From Planctomycetia bacterium (GTDB lineage Bacteria; Planctomycetota; UBA8108; SXIK01), in assembly GCA_005772855.1 (NCBI GenBank), contig SXIK01000111.1:1-42281 (forward strand): a stretch of 42,281 bases of DNA. The letters run 5' to 3'. Made by a program: the position numbers and the translations under genes. Under the pieces are notes generated by a model, which was not told where the DNA came from, ran no database searches, and worked only from the letters and a program-made list of their open reading frames with translations. This document shows, in pieces, positions 2 through 10,142 of this stretch. Position 1 is the first letter of the stretch. Each line of letters starts with the position of its first letter.

Positions 2-1777
2 AGCTACTACGACTACGACCCGCCCGAGGCGTACAGCCCGCAGCGGGACATCTACATTGAGAAGGACGCCTCGATCAACGATGACATCGATCGCCTGAGG
101 CTGTCTGCGACCAGCGCCCTCATGTCCCGTCGGGACGTCATCATTGTCGCGAGCGTCTCGTGCATTTACGGTCTGGGCGACCCGGACGATTACAAGGCAT
201 TGCTCGTTGTCGTGGAGCGGGGGGCACGGGTGGACCGGGACGATTTGCTGAGGAAGCTCGTGGATATCCAGTATTCCCGGAATGACCTGGAGCTTCTGCG
301 CGGTAATTTTCGCGTGCGGGGCGATGTCGTCGAGATCTTTCCGGCCTACGAACAGACCGCCTATCGTATCGAGATGTTCGGTGACGAGGTGGAAGCGATC
401 CTGGAGATCGATCCGCTCACCGGCGAGGTGAAACAGGATCTGCAGAAGGTGACGATCTATCCTGCCAAGCACTTTGTCATGAACCCCCAGAAGGTCGAAC
501 GCGCCGTCGACAGCATCCGCCAGGAGCTTCGAGAGAGGCTCGATGAGCTCGAGAAAGCTGGCAAGGCGCTCGAGGCGCAGCGACTCCGGTCACGTACGAG
601 ATATGACTGCGAACTCTTGCTCGAGATTGGCTACTGCCCGGGCATTGAAAATTACTCCCGCCACTTCTCGTCTCGCGCTCCGCAGGAGAGGCCACACAAC
701 CTGTATGACTATTTCCCCGAGGACTTCCTCGTGGTGGTGGACGAATCGCACGTAACGATTCCGCAGATCGGTGGCATGCACGCCGGCGACAAGTCTCGCA
801 AGCAGAACCTCATTCAGTACGGATTTCGCCTCCCTTCGGCGCTCGACAACCGCCCCATGCGATTTGACGAGTGGGAGTCGCTCGTGAAACGCGCGATCTT
901 CATCAGCGCCACCCCGGCCGAGTATGAGCTCAAGAGATGTAAAGGAGAGGTCGTGGAGCTCATCAACCGACCCACCGGCTTGCTCGATCCGGTGGTCGAG
1001 GTGCGGAAGGCCACGGGGCAAGTGCCCGATCTTCTCGCCGAGATCAGAAAGGCCGTCTCGCTGGGCGACCGCGTCCTCGTTACAACCCTCACAAAGCGCA
1101 TGGCCGAGGATTTGCATGAGCACCTCGAGGAGTCGGGTATCCGATCGCAATACCTCCACTCGGAGGTGCAGACCTTTGAGCGAGTGGAGATTCTGCAGGA
1201 CCTGCGTCGTGGACGGCATGAGGTGGTGGTGGGTGTGAACCTGCTTCGCGAGGGGCTTGATTTGCCCGAGGTGTCACTCGTGGCAATCCTCGACGCCGAC
1301 CAGGAGGGCTTCTTGCGGTCTGAAACCTCGCTCGTCCAGACGATTGGCCGAGCAGCCCGGAATGTGCGGGCTCGGGTCATCCTCTACGCCGACAAGATCA
1401 CCCAATCGATGGCGCGCGCAATGAGCGAGACAAGGCGACGCCGGGAGATCCAGATGGCCTACAACAAGGATCACGGGATCGAGCCCAGGAGCATCCAAAA
1501 GCAGATTCTGCCGGGTATTGAGCAAGAAATTCGCGCGGCGAAGGTGGTCCGGGCTGCTGTTCGAGAGGATGAATCGAGATTCAACCTGCGGGAGCGAGTC
1601 CTGGCCCTGGAGAAGGAAATGCTTGCGGCGGCCGAGCAGCTCGACTTCGAACGCGCGGCAGAGCTGCGCGACGTGATTCAAGGCCTCGAGAGCGGCAAGG
1701 TCGAGTCGGCGGGGCAGTTGGCCGGAGAGCCAAGCGCCAGCAGGTCGCGCCTCAAGGCCCCGGGGCGGCGAAAGTAA
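2..1777 (+). CDS. uvrB: UvrABC excinuclease subunit B (5' end outside window)
   Basis: UvrB is the damage-verifying helicase-like subunit of nucleotide excision repair; it takes DNA from UvrA and recruits UvrC. The frame is open from base 2, so the visible 591 residues lack only the N-terminal part with Walker A. Visible signatures in order: the beta-hairpin region (YYDYDPPEAY), SVSCIYGLGDP, the DESH box in VVDESHVTIPQIGGM, motif III ISATPAEYE, motif V LLREGLDLPE, motif VI QTIGRAARN, and a C-terminal UVR motif QLDFERAAELRD that contacts UvrC. An internal ATG at 122 is not the real start because the homology continues upstream of it. The hairpin differs from the common YYDYYQPEAY (see findings). 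It ends with TAA and is followed by a noncoding stretch. Confidence 0.97.
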   Translation, partial: SYYDYDPPEAYSPQRDIYIEKDASINDDIDRLRLSATSALMSRRDVIIVASVSCIYGLGDPDDYKALLVVVERGARVDRDDLLRKLVDIQYSRNDLELLRGNFRVRGDVVEIFPAYEQTAYRIEMFGDEVEAILEIDPLTGEVKQDLQKVTIYPAKHFVMNPQKVERAVDSIRQELRERLDELEKAGKALEAQRLRSRTRYDCELLLEIGYCPGIENYSRHFSSRAPQERPHNLYDYFPEDFLVVVDESHVTIPQIGGMHAGDKSRKQNLIQYGFRLPSALDNRPMRFDEWESLVKRAIFISATPAEYELKRCKGEVVELINRPTGLLDPVVEVRKATGQVPDLLAEIRKAVSLGDRVLVTTLTKRMAEDLHEHLEESGIRSQYLHSEVQTFERVEILQDLRRGRHEVVVGVNLLREGLDLPEVSLVAILDADQEGFLRSETSLVQTIGRAARNVRARVILYADKITQSMARAMSETRRRREIQMAYNKDHGIEPRSIQKQILPGIEQEIRAAKVVRAAVREDESRFNLRERVLALEKEMLAAAEQLDFERAAELRDVIQGLESGKVESAGQLAGEPSASRSRLKAPGRRK

Positions 1778-2120: not shown

Positions 2121-2258
2121 ATGAGGTCGCGGGTTAAGAGTCGGGTAGGTTCCATGCTCTCCGGCAAGTCGAATCGCCGGGCGAGCGTCCAGGGCCACAG
2201 AATTTTTGGCTGGACAGTCTTGGTGCTTGCGTTTGCCTTGGTCTCGCTGCAAAGCTAG
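2121..2258 (+). CDS. N-terminal segment (signal peptide) of the interrupted modular protein
   Basis: This 45-codon segment is the short product expected if the first stop (TAG 2256) is obeyed. It has a basic N-terminal region (several Arg/Lys in the first 25 residues) and then a hydrophobic core WTVLVLAFALVSLQS, a Sec signal-peptide pattern with an unusually long n-region. The stop falls immediately after the hydrophobic core, near where signal peptidase would cut. The next in-frame codons (IVRICPPLPLEP) lead straight into the first repeat module. The start is supported by the AGGAAGGT ribosome binding site. Confidence 0.6.
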   Translation: MRSRVKSRVGSMLSGKSNRRASVQGHRIFGWTVLVLAFALVSLQS

Positions 2259-2606
2259 ATCGTTCGGATTTGTCCGCCACTGCCTCTGGAGCCTGTTGTG
2301 CAGTCGGACCAGTCCAGGGCGACTCTCGAGATCGAGATTTTCGGCGACAATACCCCGCCGGAGATGATCGAGGTGAGCGGCGAGGTCGTGACCAGTCTCA
2401 AGCCGAACCGCGTTGGGACGTTTGACACCGAGATGCTTTCCATGAGTCTCACGGGCCAATCTTCCCGTGGACCAGTCCAGATCGGCCTACAGCCGAATCG
2501 GCCGACGATGGGTAGTGGCGGGCCGAATCCTGACACCGGCCAAATCGACTCATTCTTCGACGTCTTTTTTGACCTGACGGTCTCTCCTCCAGGTCAAAAC
2601 CCTTAG
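2259..2606 (+). CDS. Second segment of the interrupted protein: first (variant) repeat module
   Basis: This is the open frame between TAG 2256 and TAG 2604; the first alternative start inside it is GTG 2298, with no convincing ribosome binding site. It contains a variant module (FDTEMLSMSLTGQ, then IDSFFDVFFDLTV) that matches the module at about 4530-5090 (SFDTDMFRIQG, VDSFFDITYRIDF). The module is cut by the stop: its expected end resumes in frame after TAG 2604 as LLNLKPLRVII and ADVELFNALG. It is unlikely to be an independent gene. Confidence 0.5.
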   Translation: MVRICPPLPLEPVVQSDQSRATLEIEIFGDNTPPEMIEVSGEVVTSLKPNRVGTFDTEMLSMSLTGQSSRGPVQIGLQPNRPTMGSGGPNPDTGQIDSFFDVFFDLTVSPPGQNP

Positions 2607-4064
2607 ACCTTGCTGAATCTGAAGCCCCTGCGCGTCATCATCAGAGATTTCTGCTGGGACCATAAGGTGGCTCCCGTGGTGGCTGTGCAGCCAGAGGGAC
2701 CCGAAGCCGACGTGGAGTTGTTCAACGCCTTGGGCCAGCGAGTGGGTCTGGTGCGGAAGGTGCGTCATCAGATCGGCGAGCCCCCACCGCCGTGCTTTCC
2801 GCCGGCCGGCAAGGATGTCATGGAGTCGACGCTCCTCCACGATATCGACATCCCGGGAATTGGGCTCTGCCAGGCAAACCTCGCGGGGCCAGTGGTCGTC
2901 GAGCGCGGCAATCCGTACGTGAATCCCGCCACCGGGCTCACCTGCATCGACACGAAGATCGTGGACTTGAACCTGCAAGGTGTCGACCCCGTCTGTGGAC
3001 GGATCTGTATCACTTTGAATCCGCTCAAGGCATCAACCGGCACAATCTGCGAGAAGGTCAAGGGGACGTGCTTCCCCGCGCAGAGCTGCTTCAATGTGTT
3101 CGTCAAGGTTCAGCTCAAGGACCTTGGTGACCCAGCTCAAGGCGGCCTCTGTCTCTACGCGTGCCAGCCAGCCGAGATGTGCTGCATGATCGACCAGATC
3201 CCGCCCTTCGGCTGCCTCTACAACCTGAATATCGGGAGGGACTCGGGGCCCGTGGCCCTCTACCGCGGCCCCTGTGACCCGACGGCGGCCGGTGACCCCT
3301 GCTCGCTCCAGCCCCCGCCCCCGCCCACGGCCTATATCGTGAAAGCAGTTCACCAACCCACGGTGCCGAGCCAGTGCAAGTGCTACCCCCTGGCCGGCGA
3401 TGACTCCTTCGTTACTACCCTCGGCCACGACATCACGATTCCCGGGTTCAACTTGCACTGCAGCAATTTCCAGGGCCCTGTGGTGGTGCGCCGGTCGAAC
3501 CCTTACATTGACCCCGCTACCGGTCTCTGTTGTATCAAGACCGAGATCGTCCAGCTGGAAATGAGGGGCACTTGTGACAATGGAACCCCGGCGGTCATCC
3601 GTCTCTGCCCGAAAATGCCCTCGACGGGCTTCATCTGCGAGAAGACGCCCGGGACTTGCTTCCCGGCCAATAGTTGCTTCGACGTCTTCTTCGAGGTCGA
3701 GGTTCAAATGGCCACCGGGCCCATGATCTTCAAGAACTGCAAGCCTGCGAACATGTGCTGCATGATCAACGCGTTGCCGCCGCTCGGCTGCCCCTACCAG
3801 CTCACGAACGCCCCGATCGAGCTGTACAAGGTGGTACCCGGAAAGCCCTTCCCGTGCAATCAGACTCCACTTCCGATGCCCGACGGAATTCTTCGGAACG
3901 CCAATCATACCCCGACGGAGCCCCTCGAGCCCTGCTGTCCCGATTACGGACCAGGGACGGACACCTTTCAGTCCAACCTTTTCCACGACATCGAGATCCC
4001 CGGCATAGGGCGCTGCAACGCCAACCTCAGCGGCCCCATCACGGTGGTGCGCGGAACGCCGTAA
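2607..4064 (+). CDS. Third segment of the interrupted protein: end of module 1, modules 2-3, start of module 4
   Basis: This is the open frame between TAG 2604 and TAA 4062; the first possible start is TTG 2610, without a clear ribosome binding site. Module starts are visible at about 2805 (LLHDIDIPGIG), 3391 (LGHDITIPG) and 3952 (LFHDIEIPGIG), each preceded by a linker such as AYIVKAVHQPT. Paired Cys motifs (CFPAQSCF, MCCMIDQIPP) suggest disulphide-stabilised extracellular domains. The segment ends in the middle of the conserved RGxPYxxPATG motif of module 4, where TAA stands at the place of Tyr in three other modules. That position argues that the stop is a nonsense substitution rather than a natural gene end. 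Confidence 0.6.
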   Translation, partial: TLLNLKPLRVIIRDFCWDHKVAPVVAVQPEGPEADVELFNALGQRVGLVRKVRHQIGEPPPPCFPPAGKDVMESTLLHDIDIPGIGLCQANLAGPVVVERGNPYVNPATGLTCIDTKIVDLNLQGVDPVCGRICITLNPLKASTGTICEKVKGTCFPAQSCFNVFVKVQLKDLGDPAQGGLCLYACQPAEMCCMIDQIPPFGCLYNLNIGRDSGPVALYRGPCDPTAAGDPCSLQPPPPPTAYIVKAVHQPTVPSQCKCYPLAGDDSFVTTLGHDITIPGFNLHCSNFQGPVVVRRSNPYIDPATGLCCIKTEIVQLEMRGTCDNGTPAVIRLCPKMPSTGFICEKTPGTCFPANSCFDVFFEVEVQMATGPMIFKNCKPANMCCMINALPPLGCPYQLTNAPIELYKVVPGKPFPCNQTPLPMPDGILRNANHTPTEPLEPCCPDYGPGTDTFQSNLFHDIEIPGIGRCNANLSGPITVVRGTP

Positions 4065-7000
4065 GTGGACCCGACGACCGGCCTCTGCTGCGTGGAGGTG
4101 TTCATGAAGAGCATGCTCCTCCAGGGGGTCGACCCATTGTGCGGGAGGATTTGCATCACCTTGGACCCGAAACGGCCGTCCAAGGGCCGCATTTGCCAGA
4201 AGGAGCGCGGGGGGCCCTGCTTCCCGGCCAATAGCTGCTTCGAGATGTTCGTGCGTGTCGAGCTCAAGGACCTGAACCGGGTCCTTATCGCCTGCGAGCC
4301 GGCCAAGATGTGCTGCATGATCGACGGGGTTCCACCCATTGGCTGCACGTACCAGCTGGACATCGGAAACCTCGGAAGGGTGCCCCTCTACGACGACACG
4401 GCGACCAACGCCATCGCCGGCGGCGGGGCCGCCGTGCCTTGCGAGGTCCCGGACAATGGGACGGGGACGATTACTCTGCCGCCCCCGAACTGCGGCTATC
4501 TGAGCCCCCAGGATGTCCACATGATCATTGATGGCTTGCCTGCCGGGACGACGATCCAGGTCGGCGCCGAGCACACCAGGTTCTTCAACATCCAGGAGCA
4601 ACCTGGTGGTTCGCTTGACGGCAACATGGAGAATTTCGGGTCAACAATGAACCTGAAATTGCAGGGGACCGGAGCCCTCTCCACTTTCCAGGCAATGCTC
4701 ACGCTGCAGGCTCAGTGCGAGACCCACACGGCGCCCCGGATGCCCGGTCAGCCGGTCCAGTCCTTCGACACGGATATGTTCAGGATCCAGGGGCAGCTGC
4801 CCATTGGCGACCCCGACTTCGACCTCTTACGGATCACCGCTGGTACCGGTTTCGGCCTACCGAGCCCTGGCCACACGACCCTGACGAGGCTGCCCAACGG
4901 CAACTGGAACGTCGATAGCTTCTTTGACATTACCTACCGAATCGACTTTGTCGGCAGGCCCGGCGGGCGCCTCATGGGCATGAGCGGCTCGACGACGGGG
5001 ACGATCCGCATGCAGACTGGAAGCGGCGGCGGGCCCACAGATCCGTGCCAGCAGCCGGCGCCTGTCCCGACCGCCTTCATCGTCAAGGCCGTGCATCAGC
5101 CGGTACCCTGTGCTCCCGATGCGCCGCCGGCAGGTGACGACACCATGCCTTCGGAGCTCGCGCACAGAATCCGGATCCCCGGAGCCGGCCCTGGTGGAGG
5201 AGACCTGATCTGCGACGCCGACATGCACGGGCCAGTCGTCATCCGGCGCGGGGCCCCGCACATCGATCCGGCCACCGGCCGCTGTACCATTGACACTGAA
5301 ATCGTCAGCATGGAGCTTACCGGAATCGACCCGGTCTGCGGCATGGTCAGGGTCCGGGAGTCCCCGACGAGGCCTTCCAGGGGCAAGATCATGCAACAGG
5401 GTGCCGCGGGCGGGTCCATGTTCCCCGCAGGCAGCTTCTTTGATATCTTCGTGGATATCGAGGTGGCCCCTACCGGCAACCCGGCGGGGACTGTCAGGCT
5501 GCAGAACTGTCTGCCGGCGCGGATGGAGTGCGTGATCACTGCCATCCCGCCCATCAACTGCGTCTATGAGCTGAACCTCTCGGACGTCCAGCTCTACCCG
5601 GCCGGCCAGTGCGGCCCGAACGTCCGGCCCGTGGGCGCCATCGAGGTGGCGCAGCACATTCCGAGGAAGCCGTGTCCCTGCCCGTACGGGCCCGGGACCG
5701 ACACGATGGACTCTCTCCTGAGGCATGATATCGAGATCTTCGGGGTTGGCGGTGCCTCGAAGCTCTGCACGGCTCCGCTCAGTGGCCCGGTGGTGGTGGA
5801 GCGTGGGGAGCCCTACGAGATCACCGATGCCGCGGGCAACAAGCTCTGCTGTGTCTCGACGCGCATGCTCAGCATGAACCTCACGGGTACCGATCCAACC
5901 TGCGGCGACGTGAAAATTCGCCTCTGTCCGGAGAGGCCTTCGCGCGGCACGATTTGCCAGATGATGCCGGGGGCTTGCTTCCCGGCGACGAGTTGCTTCG
6001 ATGTCTACATCGAGGTCGAGGTCATGGGCATGATCCTCAAGAACTGCAAGCCCATCAAGATGTGCTGCAAGATCAACACGATTCCGCCCTATGGCTGTGT
6101 GTACCTCGTGGATCCGGGCCCCGAACCGCTCCTTCTCTTCAGGAAGGGGGACTGCGACAGTCCCAACACGCGCGCGGTGGGCCAGATCAGAAGGGCCGAG
6201 CATATACCACAGCCGCCTTGCGACCCGCCGGTGCCGTTCACGAGCATCACCTGCGTGGGCCCAAACTCGGAAGGCACGGTGGTCGTCAAGTGGGATAACA
6301 ACCCACAGTGTCCGTGCAGGGGCAGGGTCCGGGTGACTCGGACCGACCCCGCTGGAGGCGTCCAGACGTTCGACGTGCCGGCCGGGGCCACCTCGTTCAC
6401 CGATGTGCCTGACCCCAAGCCCTTCTGCGTGCCGGGTGTCGCGGCCGTCACCTTCAAGTACTGCGTCCAGTGCCTCTCGACGACGGGAGCCGTGGTGGCT
6501 CAGTCCTGCTGTGAAGTGTCGGTGAGGTGCCCCGAGCCGCCCGCCTGCGTGGACTGCATCGAGGGAGTCAGGTGCCAGCCGAAGAGGGGTGGTGTCCTGG
6601 AGGTCACCTGGACCTACAAGCCGAACTGCCAGCCGCGGTGCGAGAAGGTCGAGATCTTCCTTAATTCCGCCACCGGTCCCGTCTTGCTGGGCACGGTGCC
6701 TGGCACCGCGACCTCGTTCGAGACGCCTTGCAAGCCCGGCCGGTACTGTATCCGCTGCATCTGCGCTGACGGCACCGCGGGTCCTCCTCACTGTTGCGAG
6801 CCGATCACGAGTTGCCCGGGCTTCCGTGTCCCCCTGGACTGCAACTCTGACGACAAAGTCGACATCGCTGATGGAGTCTGCCTCCTCACGTTCCTGTACC
6901 TGGGCGGACAGCGCCTGCCTTGCGGTGACTTGAGGTCTCCGGGGAACAGGGCGCTCCTGGACGCCAACGGCGACGAGGCTGTTGGCCTTGCCGACGCACT

Positions 7001-7118
7001 CCGTATCTTCGGCTGGCTCTTCCTGGGCGCCCCGACCCCGGTCCCGTGCATCGATGCCAAGTGCAGACAGTGCATTCCGATTCCGGACTGCCCGGACCGC
7101 TGCCCGCCAGGACAGTAG
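4065..7118 (+). CDS. Fourth segment of the interrupted protein: rest of module 4, modules 5-7, Cys-rich domains, dockerin-like end
   Basis: This is a 1017-codon open frame directly after TAA 4062, starting nominally at GTG 4065 with no ribosome binding site of its own. It completes module 4 (VDPTTGLCCVEV onward) and carries variant module 5 (about 4530-5090), module 6 (about 5125-5670) and module 7 (about 5690-6210). Next come two Cys-rich beta-sandwich-like domains with CxxC pairs and then the dockerin-like repeats with DxNxDxxxxxxD loops and hydrophobic LFLG helices. It lacks a signal peptide, so alone it could not be exported by Sec. Dockerin-like motifs in this phylum are usually C-terminal on secreted proteins. 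Confidence 0.7.
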   Translation: MDPTTGLCCVEVFMKSMLLQGVDPLCGRICITLDPKRPSKGRICQKERGGPCFPANSCFEMFVRVELKDLNRVLIACEPAKMCCMIDGVPPIGCTYQLDIGNLGRVPLYDDTATNAIAGGGAAVPCEVPDNGTGTITLPPPNCGYLSPQDVHMIIDGLPAGTTIQVGAEHTRFFNIQEQPGGSLDGNMENFGSTMNLKLQGTGALSTFQAMLTLQAQCETHTAPRMPGQPVQSFDTDMFRIQGQLPIGDPDFDLLRITAGTGFGLPSPGHTTLTRLPNGNWNVDSFFDITYRIDFVGRPGGRLMGMSGSTTGTIRMQTGSGGGPTDPCQQPAPVPTAFIVKAVHQPVPCAPDAPPAGDDTMPSELAHRIRIPGAGPGGGDLICDADMHGPVVIRRGAPHIDPATGRCTIDTEIVSMELTGIDPVCGMVRVRESPTRPSRGKIMQQGAAGGSMFPAGSFFDIFVDIEVAPTGNPAGTVRLQNCLPARMECVITAIPPINCVYELNLSDVQLYPAGQCGPNVRPVGAIEVAQHIPRKPCPCPYGPGTDTMDSLLRHDIEIFGVGGASKLCTAPLSGPVVVERGEPYEITDAAGNKLCCVSTRMLSMNLTGTDPTCGDVKIRLCPERPSRGTICQMMPGACFPATSCFDVYIEVEVMGMILKNCKPIKMCCKINTIPPYGCVYLVDPGPEPLLLFRKGDCDSPNTRAVGQIRRAEHIPQPPCDPPVPFTSITCVGPNSEGTVVVKWDNNPQCPCRGRVRVTRTDPAGGVQTFDVPAGATSFTDVPDPKPFCVPGVAAVTFKYCVQCLSTTGAVVAQSCCEVSVRCPEPPACVDCIEGVRCQPKRGGVLEVTWTYKPNCQPRCEKVEIFLNSATGPVLLGTVPGTATSFETPCKPGRYCIRCICADGTAGPPHCCEPITSCPGFRVPLDCNSDDKVDIADGVCLLTFLYLGGQRLPCGDLRSPGNRALLDANGDEAVGLADALRIFGWLFLGAPTPVPCIDAKCRQCIPIPDCPDRCPPGQ

Positions 7119-7161: not shown

Positions 7162-7208
7162 AGCTCGCGCCCCTCGCGCCCCCGAGGCGGGGGGCGCGAG
7201 CTTTCTTT
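7162..7208 (+). terminator. Rho-independent terminator after the modular protein
   Basis: A 12-bp GC-rich stem (7162-7173 AGCTCGCGCCCC with 7191-7202 GGGGCGCGAGCT) is followed by TTTCTTTT. It lies 43 nt after the stop at 7118. It also overlaps the earliest possible start (7208) of the next ORF, so the kinase gene must begin further down. Confidence 0.88.
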
Positions 7209-7265
7209 TGTGGGGCGGCCTGCAACCAGGACGGCAAACTTCAACATCTGCAAGGCAGTCGCCCC

Positions 7266-7295
7266 TCAACAGGCTCTCAGGCGTGCTGTTATACT
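7266..7295 (+). promoter_or_regulatory. Candidate promoter for the histidine kinase/response regulator pair
   Basis: TCAACA (7266-7271, weak -35) and TATACT (7290-7295, five of six -10 matches) are 18 nt apart, just downstream of the terminator and upstream of the kinase start region. Confidence 0.4.
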
Positions 7296-7312
7296 CGCCA
7301 GTCTGTAACGAA

Positions 7313-9370
7313 GTGCTACTGACTGGTGAGTTGGTTGTTGTTTGGGTCCGATTCCGCAGGCACGACTTGGCTTCCAAGCTCAAAAAGTACCTCCGCAACA
7401 CGCCGATCAAGCTGATCGCGGTGATACTCTTTGCCATCTTTGTGCCGAGTGTCCTGGTCACGGCGCTGGGGCTGGTGGCAGTGTTTCAGGCGCAAGGGTT
7501 CGTGCGAGATCGCTTCACGCAGCCTGTGCGGGAACGAGTCGACCAGCTCTACACGGCTCTGCAATCGGAATGGTCTCGCCGGCTAGAGCACTACAATCAG
7601 CACTTCCGGGATTCGGTCCAGCGGCGCGATTTTCTTGGCGATATCCGGGGACGAGACCCTTACATGGTCGACCTCCTGTTCGCCGGGCCCGCGGGGCCAA
7701 GCCTTGTGCCCGACCCACCCCCGCTTCGGCTCTGGTCACTCGATCCCGAAGCTCGTCTCAAGGAACTGCATCGTCTGGAGCTTCTCTCGAAGGATTACCC
7801 CTCGGCCCTTCGTGAATGCCTCAGGCTGCTCGAATCCGGCGAGGACGATGCGGTCCTCGTGGAGGCCAGAATTGGCGCGGCTCGAGTCAGCCACAAGCTC
7901 GGTGACAGGGAGCAAAGCCTCTCACACCTCCGGGCGGCACTGGCAAAATATGGCTACACAATGGACGTCACCGGAATTGTGCGCGGCCTCCCCATCCTGC
8001 TGCGCATTGCAGAGTTGGAGCGTGAGTCTGGCCGCGAGACACGTCGAAGGGAGGCCCTCCGGGAGCTCAGACGGTGGATAGAGCGGGTCGGAAACAGGAT
8101 GGATCCGGAGCTCCTCTCGTTCTTTCGTGAGCGAGCCACCTCGATTCCGGAGGGGGATGTGACCCAGTCGGAGGGGCCGACGGTTGGGCGATTGGGGTCG
8201 CAACACCTCTCTCCACTTTCAACAGTCCTTCCAGGATTGCCGAAAGTGCTCGCCTCGGCTCTCAGGATTGAGACTCACGTGCAGTTGGGGGAGCTTGGGG
8301 AATGGGATTTTGTCAGCTTTCCTTCGAGCGACGGGGCTGGGGTCGTCCACTTGGCTTTGAGCCGAGCTCAAGTGCTAAGGGAGGGCACTCGCCTCTGCGG
8401 CGAGTTGGGGCTGCCGGTGGGGGGGCTGTCGATTTGCGCAGTCGGTGAAGGCAGAGGCTCCGCGAACGAGATCCGTTCGACACGTCTGCCCCCGCCCTTC
8501 ACGAACCTTGAGATGCGGTATGTGTCTGTTGCCGGCCTTCTGCCGGAGGGGTTTCGGGCCTTTGGGGTCCTGACGCTCGCGACGTTTACCTGGGCGGTGA
8601 TTGTACTCGTCTTGTCGATCGTCATCGGTGTGCTCTTTACTGTGCGGTCGGTCTCGCGGGAGCTGAAAACGGCGCGGCTAAAGTCCGACTTCGTGAGTTT
8701 CATTACCCACGAGCTGAAAACGCCCTTGACGGCGATCAGCACCTTGACCGAGACCATGCTGGCCGGACGAATCAGCTCGCCCGAGGAGAGCCAACTCTGC
8801 ATCCAAATGATCAGCACCGAGTCTGAGCGGCTCTCGAAGCTTGTCGCACAGGTGCTCGAGTACTCGAAGATTGAGCGCCAGGAGAAGCAATTCCGGTTCG
8901 TCAGCTGCGACATGGAGAATGTCGTGAGGGAAGCCGCGCGCCTCTTCGCGGAACATAACCGCACGAGCCCCCGGGAGATCGAGATCAACTCTGCTCAACA
9001 CATCTCAAGAATCAAAATGGACCGTGCCTCCATGGTCGAGCTTGTCCTCAATCTTCTGTCGAACGCCGCCAAGTACTCGCCCCGTGAGAAGAAGATCGTG
9101 GTCAACCTACGGGAATCGATCGACGATATCTGCGTGGATGTCGTTGACCGAGGAATCGGCATCCGAAAGAGGGATCAAAAAAAAATCTTCGAGAAATTCT
9201 TTCGAGCGGACGACTACTTGACCCGCGAGATCGAGGGGACAGGCCTGGGGCTCGCCTTCGCACGCTACATCGCCAGAGTTCACAACGGGGACATCAAGGT
9301 TACGAGCCAGCTGTCGACTGGCAGCACTTTTACGCTGCAGTTGCGCAAGACCCACGTGCTTGCCGAATGA
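7313..9370 (+). CDS. Membrane sensor histidine kinase with TPR-like extracytoplasmic domain
   Basis: This is the sensor of a two-component system: it autophosphorylates on His and passes phosphate to the regulator encoded next. Numbering from GTG 7313 gives 685 residues. TM1 lies near residues 22-45 (LIAVILFAIFVPSVLVTALG) and TM2 near 420-445. Between them is a long extracytoplasmic region with helical TPR-like repeats (around LKELHRLELLSKDYPSALRE). The HisKA H-box is FVSFITHELKTPL with His466. The ATPase has an N-box (LVLNLLSNAAKYS), G1 (VVDRGIGIRK) and G2 (GTGLGLAFA). No HAMP domain is obvious after TM2. The start is uncertain: GTG 7313 and TTG 7331 are in frame, and the longer ORF from 7208 begins inside the terminator. 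Confidence 0.9.
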   Translation: MLLTGELVVVWVRFRRHDLASKLKKYLRNTPIKLIAVILFAIFVPSVLVTALGLVAVFQAQGFVRDRFTQPVRERVDQLYTALQSEWSRRLEHYNQHFRDSVQRRDFLGDIRGRDPYMVDLLFAGPAGPSLVPDPPPLRLWSLDPEARLKELHRLELLSKDYPSALRECLRLLESGEDDAVLVEARIGAARVSHKLGDREQSLSHLRAALAKYGYTMDVTGIVRGLPILLRIAELERESGRETRRREALRELRRWIERVGNRMDPELLSFFRERATSIPEGDVTQSEGPTVGRLGSQHLSPLSTVLPGLPKVLASALRIETHVQLGELGEWDFVSFPSSDGAGVVHLALSRAQVLREGTRLCGELGLPVGGLSICAVGEGRGSANEIRSTRLPPPFTNLEMRYVSVAGLLPEGFRAFGVLTLATFTWAVIVLVLSIVIGVLFTVRSVSRELKTARLKSDFVSFITHELKTPLTAISTLTETMLAGRISSPEESQLCIQMISTESERLSKLVAQVLEYSKIERQEKQFRFVSCDMENVVREAARLFAEHNRTSPREIEINSAQHISRIKMDRASMVELVLNLLSNAAKYSPREKKIVVNLRESIDDICVDVVDRGIGIRKRDQKKIFEKFFRADDYLTREIEGTGLGLAFARYIARVHNGDIKVTSQLSTGSTFTLQLRKTHVLAE

Positions 9371-9428: not shown

Positions 9429-10142
9429 ATGACTCGCATGACCCAGAAGACCGACAAGCCGCCCGGCCGGGTGAAGATCCTCGTCGTGGAGGACGACGGA
9501 GCCATTCTCTTCGCGCTGCAGAAGAACCTCCAGTTCGAGGGGTATGAAGTCATCCTGGCTTCCGATGGTGAAACGGGCCTCAGGCGAGCACTCGAGGACA
9601 GGCCGCAGCTCATCGTTCTGGACATCATGCTCCCCAGGATGAGCGGCTTCGAGGTCTGCGAGGCGATTCGGAAGCAAGAGATCGACATCCCGGTGATATT
9701 CCTCAGCGCCAAGGCGCAGGAGATGGACCGGATCGCCGGGCTGAACTTGGGCGCCGACGACTACATCACGAAGCCCTTCAGCATCCGTGAGCTACTGGCG
9801 CGGGTGAAGACGGTACTCCGGCGGTCCCAGGGGGAAACACAGGAGACGCTGCGATTTGGAGACGTCGAGGTCAATTTCACGGCCCAGACACTGGAGGTAC
9901 GAGGACAAGGGGTGAGCTTGACGCCAAAGGAGTTTGAGCTCCTCCGATTGCTGGTGCGATCGGAAGGCAAAGTCCTGCCACGGGACTCGATTCTGAACAG
10001 AGTCTGGGGGTACGGCTACGACGGCACGGCCCGCACGATCGACAATTTCATCAATCGGCTGCGCCAGAAGATCGAGGACGATGTGGACGCTCCGAGGCAC
10101 ATCCTCACAGTGCGAGGTGTGGGGTATCGGTTTCAGGGGTAG
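9429..10142 (+). CDS. OmpR/PhoB-family response regulator
   Basis: This is a DNA-binding transcription regulator, the partner of the kinase 58 nt upstream. The 237 residues give a receiver domain (about 14-130) with acidic pocket VVEDD, phospho-acceptor Asp65 in IVLDIMLP, and KPF of the conserved Lys loop. A winged-helix effector domain follows (about 145-235; LTPKEFELLRLL, the recognition region VWGYGYDGTARTIDNFI and the terminal VRGVGYRF). An alternative in-frame start is ATG 9438. The targets are unknown. Confidence 0.95.
   Translation: MTRMTQKTDKPPGRVKILVVEDDGAILFALQKNLQFEGYEVILASDGETGLRRALEDRPQLIVLDIMLPRMSGFEVCEAIRKQEIDIPVIFLSAKAQEMDRIAGLNLGADDYITKPFSIRELLARVKTVLRRSQGETQETLRFGDVEVNFTAQTLEVRGQGVSLTPKEFELLRLLVRSEGKVLPRDSILNRVWGYGYDGTARTIDNFINRLRQKIEDDVDAPRHILTVRGVGYRFQG

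Follow-up and report, generated by a model that had tools for sequence, protein, structure and literature searches.

Results and discussion

An interrupted gene for a secreted repeat protein

The reading frame at positions 2121-7118 of the window (the whole 42,281-nucleotide stretch analysed, contig C86; the genome comprises 5.03 Mb in 244 contigs and is 96% complete) is probably a gene, inactivated not long ago, for a secreted protein of DUF6073 repeats that ends in a dockerin-like tail. Translation of its 1666 codons agrees with the sequence-only reading in all main features: the frame is open apart from TAG 2256, TAG 2604 and TAA 4062, it contains no frameshift (the alignment to an intact ortholog stays in one frame along the whole length), a good ribosome-binding site (GAGGAAGGTG) precedes ATG 2121, and the first 45 codons are signal-peptide-like, with a signal peptide found at the equivalent place of the ortholog. 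The terminal stop of the frame, at 7116, is also TAG. The in-frame codon scores of the four segments between the stops are 0.05, 0.12, 0.16 and 0.14, all positive, and the true frame scores best of the three forward frames in each segment, barely so in the short signal-peptide segment.

TAA 4062 takes the place of a Tyr, as had been proposed, and Tyr is present in several sister modules as well as in the ortholog. Both TAG codons fall within the poorly conserved N-terminal 230 residues, where the alignment is uncertain, and the original residues at these two sites therefore cannot be named. The coordinates of all features are collected in Table 1.

Table 1. Features of the interrupted gene, its neighbours and the CUA-anticodon tRNA (window positions unless a contig is given)
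Feature	Position	Strand	Remarks
uvrB	122..1777	+	upstream neighbour; 5' end may extend beyond contig; also in ortholog contig
Whole interrupted frame, secreted repeat protein	2121..7118	+	ATG 2121; terminal TAG 7116-7118
Signal-peptide-like N-terminal segment	2121..2255	+	from sequence and ortholog equivalent
Stop 1, in-frame TAG	2256..2258	+	facing CCG (Pro) in ortholog, alignment uncertain
Stop 2, in-frame TAG	2604..2606	+	facing ATC (Ile) in ortholog, alignment uncertain
Repeat module W1, DUF6073-like	2775..3320	+	
Repeat module W2, DUF6073-like	3363..3905	+	module used for structure model
Repeat module W3, DUF6073-like	3921..4460	+	contains TAA 4062; ends approximate
Stop 3, in-frame TAA	4062..4064	+	replaces conserved Tyr; ortholog codon TAC
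Repeat module W4, DUF6073-like	5100..5645	+	
Repeat module W5, DUF6073-like	5661..6215	+	
Dockerin-like C-terminal tail	6771..7115	+	two Asp-rich loops
Histidine kinase	7208..9370	+	downstream neighbour; also in ortholog contig
Response regulator	9429..10142	+	also in ortholog contig
CUA-anticodon tRNA (L055)	C101:979-1054	-	positional ortholog of tRNA-Lys(CUU)

The encoded protein consists of the signal-peptide-like segment, about five DUF6073-matching modules of ~180 residues each and other domains, namely a distinct block recognised by its DGLPAGTTI motif, the Cys-rich domains and the dockerin-like tail. Longer pieces of the frame match the DUF6073 profile (PF19550) with 55.3 and 54.8 bits, against a cut-off of 25. 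Modelling of a module, based on nine copies taken from the window and the ortholog, gave an all-beta structure (pLDDT 91), whose top match among solved structures is DynF (6ubl, E 3.9e-5). The tail scores 13.8 bits with the dockerin type I profile (PF00404), under the cut-off of 22.9, a PDB sequence search with it gave no match, and judged by its sequence it is dockerin-like only. Related tails occur in dozens of places in the genome; three dockerin matches flagged as holding TGA proved to be ordinary gene ends.

In its intact form the gene, located between uvrB and a two-component system, would have encoded a secreted protein in which some five DUF6073-like modules are combined with Cys-rich domains and the dockerin-like tail, and the three nonsense substitutions would have been acquired in the lineage of the window. 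Termination at 2256 would release a peptide of ~45 residues. The pieces downstream of the stops carry no signal peptide, and a product of downstream restart would hardly be exportable, so that the protein is expected to be effectively off. The CUA-anticodon tRNA of this genome (see below) may pass some ribosomes through both TAGs, but not through TAA 4062. Young damage would explain both the lack of indels and the preserved state of the modules. Loss of function, its recency and a single true genotype behind the sequence are what we infer from these data.

The ortholog and the age of the damage

The sole ortholog was found in a genome (G001) of a different genus in the same family, with a frame of 2009 codons and no internal stop. 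A contig scan for relatives returned only the contig of this genome, and the gene was not found in any other of the 59 genomes searched (E 1e-10); with no second ortholog among them, the stops could not be placed on the tree. The ortholog contig (371) carries uvrB, the repeat-protein gene, the histidine kinase and the response regulator in the same order as the window. The comparison with related genomes thus yields one ortholog with sense codons at all three stop sites, and the two genes therefore do not share the stops as a conserved device.

The sequence-only reading had also offered programmed readthrough, or an on/off switch next to the signal peptide, and this idea is not supported. In its favour, the first stop lies directly after the signal peptide and the modules are uneroded. 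The ortholog, however, lacks all three stops, no significant RNA structure was detected 3' of them (z -1.6, +0.7 and -1.0, in a test of structures other than pseudoknots), and we know of no switch design with three separate stops of two kinds. Evolved readthrough or switching is thus highly improbable.

The identity between the two proteins is 32-40% in the N-terminal 230 residues and 63-65% in the central modules. For residues 231-1330, pairwise dN is ~0.30 and dS 0.8-0.9, and evolution is faster in the N-terminal 230 residues (dN 0.6-0.9); these figures reflect past constraint and cannot reveal constraint since the stops appeared. Counted at 55 conserved columns across the five modules, departures number 22 in the window copy and 31 in the ortholog. 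Since erosion of the conserved repeats does not exceed that in the ortholog, the damage looks young, although the lack of excess erosion fits either recency or continued constraint. Among the explanations offered by the sequence-only reading, a very recent pseudogene fits best, given the intact syntenic ortholog, the unshared stops and the absence of excess erosion.

Three stops in this gene correspond to 108-138 neutral substitutions on average, with a wide error. Under neutral decay, nonsense mutations would make up all three disabling changes with a probability of 0.2-11%, a range that rests on assuming 0.15-0.03 frameshifting indels per substitution. The earlier argument that stops without indels speak against ordinary decay therefore keeps some weight, as the pattern is unusual, but it is not decisive and the pattern is not extraordinary. 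The zero frameshifts count against recent inactivation, and simple neutral decay does not quite fit three stops that come without an excess of missense change. The stop types expected from random mutation of this gene are 53-62% TAG and 12% TAA, and the two TAG and one TAA observed agree with this.

A population mosaic would account for three stops without indels or erosion. Here, each strain would carry its own null allele of a surface protein that is not essential, the consensus would have joined these alleles, and no cell need carry all three stops. The contig-end overlaps suggest a short-read graph assembly, able to join strain variants; nothing, however, shows variants at this locus, and we consider a mosaic doubtful. 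That the three stops, and perhaps the tRNA too, result from sequence or assembly errors is quite improbable: assemblies are known to contain false internal stops (PMC11017572), but there are few interrupted genes in the surveyed sequence, and three substitution errors within 1.8 kb with zero indels would make a strange cluster. Of the overlaps, that between the end of contig C233 and the start of C22 comprises ~140 bases across tRNA-Lys(UUU), which points to a graph assembly with breaks at k ~141, and the two tRNA-Lys(UUU) copies on these contigs are probably one gene.

A CUA-anticodon tRNA in the same genome

The search for suppressor tRNAs proposed by the sequence-only reading (CTA or TTA anticodon) succeeded in part. 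Rfam found 34 tRNA genes, all with assigned anticodons, one of which is CUA. No UUA-anticodon tRNA, the ochre suppressor needed for TAA 4062, is among these 34, in a tRNA set that is incomplete in the assembly. The candidate CUA tRNA could read TAG 2256 and TAG 2604, not TAA 4062, and so could not alone restore the protein.

The CUA tRNA and tRNA-Arg(UCG) lie in one cluster, and in G001 and two further genomes (G004 and G006) the place next to tRNA-Arg(UCG) is taken by tRNA-Lys(CUU) (the G004 copy is masked beyond the anticodon stem). Relative to the tRNA-Lys(CUU) of G001, one anticodon base is changed (CUU to CUA), and stem pairing is retained save for an A6-G67 mismatch in the acceptor stem, the only departure from the canonical tRNA shape. 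A promoter-like stretch, in which TTTTCCTTTGACA and TAAATA are separated by 17-18 bases, is common to the two loci, the CCA end is kept in the gene, and a terminator hairpin follows. The CUA tRNA is the positional ortholog of the sense tRNA-Lys(CUU), from which it is derived by anticodon change. That tRNA-Lys(CUU), redundant with tRNA-Lys(UUU), is itself decaying accounts for the change no less well than weak or new suppression would.

No CUA or UUA tRNA of matching shape was found in the 293 other Planctomycetota genomes of a 294-genome pattern search, which would miss tRNAs shaped otherwise. The secDF gene on the contig of the CUA tRNA (C101) has relatives across the order, and in G004 secDF and the pair of tRNAs are likewise on one contig; both observations favour correct binning of C101. 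An exact fragment of the CUA tRNA is absent from the viral contigs searched, and there is thus no sign of a phage origin. A pyrrolysine system was rejected, with no PylS over the cut-off (best 20 bits against 178).

The CUA tRNA is the basis for the alternative of partial amber suppression, in which the altered tRNA-Lys(CUU) would insert probably Lys at UAG and in-frame TAGs would be tolerated. The gene would then be expressed at a reduced level through the TAGs until TAA 4062, or would pass the TAA by background leakiness. The canonical tRNA with its conserved promoter-like stretch, CCA end and terminator, the sole match among 294 genomes, agrees with suppression, as do the two TAGs among the three stops and the TAGs in another gene and in one kinase match described below. 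On the other side, the CUA anticodon cannot read TAA 4062 and no UUA tRNA is among the 34 found; the A6-G67 mismatch may mean that the tRNA is itself decaying; the TAG share is not above the random-mutation expectation; and RF1 is intact, with TAG, unaccompanied by guard stops, terminating 23% of genes. Suppression is for these reasons considered unlikely, although a suppressor-type tRNA with no match in 293 other genomes of the phylum counts against a plain pseudogene.

Stop codon usage and other interrupted genes

TAG terminates 23.0% of 851 genes in the genome, and 22.7% in the G001 sample. There are no guard stops after the TAG terminators, the distances to the next stop are normal, and RF1 (prfA) is intact (a TGA flagged in prfA is its normal gene end). 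Reassignment of TAG is ruled out by these observations, and with the code unchanged, suppression, if any, is weak or new. Frames with multiple TAGs at three other loci (L062, L064 and L057) are antisense shadows or adjacent genes, e.g. pheS-pheT.

Stops with coding sequence on either side in the best frame were surveyed in 1.14 Mb, and a cruder scan covered 1.78 Mb; home-made Viterbi frameshift calls were unreliable and were left out of the counts. The majority of the flagged stops in both are gene ends. At C79:24769 (L124:4769, plus strand) a TAG faces CAG (Gln) in two relatives, with a one-base frameshift ~30 codons later. The phosphorylase-like gene at C50:28230 (L114:8230, plus strand) is truncated at its end and contains a TGA and a frameshift; it is an ordinary pseudogene. 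Both resemble ordinary pseudogenes and each is frameshifted, which indicates that gene decay is ongoing in this genome. Among 46 protein-kinase matches, one contains an in-frame TAG (C238:16364-17173, plus strand), which could be at the domain end. The counts of interrupted genes are too small to show an excess of TAG.

In-frame TGAs at L067:13659 (C143), L101:8413 (C93) and L111:9495 (C239) are likely selenocysteine sites by their sequence contexts, which we take to be, respectively, a peroxiredoxin catalytic-Cys site, a formate-dehydrogenase-like protein and a SelW-like CxxU motif. A further in-frame TGA, in an FG-GAP repeat protein (L132:15051, C152, minus strand; EDL*SFFWRQV), is selenocysteine or nonsense.

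A broader possibility, which we regard as speculative and improbable, is early amber decoding in the lineage: the redundant tRNA-Lys(CUU) would have become a working UAG reader while RF1 persists, UAG would be ambiguous, and TAGs would accumulate in tolerant genes. Such ambiguous decoding of UAG while RF1 is present is predicted by the 'ambiguous intermediate' model of codon reassignment, and few wild, free-living examples of it are known to us. If true, the lineage would be a wild intermediate of codon reassignment, and if the CUA tRNA is active, the genome would allow measuring life under suppression with 23% TAG terminators. In general, the repeat-protein gene is probably ordinary decay caught early, and the anticodon switch in a tRNA conserved by relatives is the less ordinary observation.

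Comparison with known systems

In laboratory E. coli amber suppressors, one anticodon base converts a sense tRNA into a UAG reader and RF1 is retained. The CUA tRNA, a putative suppressor, is similar in its single anticodon-base change in the presence of RF1. In contrast to the E. coli suppressors, it belongs to an uncultured planctomycete, arose with no laboratory selection and has an acceptor-stem mismatch. The CUA anticodon is shared with PylT, hence the ARAGORN label tRNA-Pyl, whereas the 5-bp anticodon stem, the ordinary D arm and the position of a tRNA-Lys ortholog are unlike PylT. Stop-recoded phages (for example PMC7886860, PMC11210395) likewise combine a CUA suppressor tRNA with in-frame TAGs in the genome; unlike in these phages, the tRNA here is a chromosomal positional ortholog of tRNA-Lys, and TAG is still the stop of 23% of genes.

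The modules resemble DUF6073 proteins and the DynF fold (6ubl) by the profile match over the cut-off and by the structure match, and differ in that five of them stand in tandem in a protein that is secreted and has a dockerin-like tail. It has been reported that genes interrupted by in-frame stops may be retained under constraint (PMC7918605). Those cases and the gene in the window have in common a nonsense interruption with coding constraint still visible in the sequence, probably of young age. Their stops, however, are shared between at least two genomes, while those of the window gene are in no second genome, and the window gene bears three stops in one gene.
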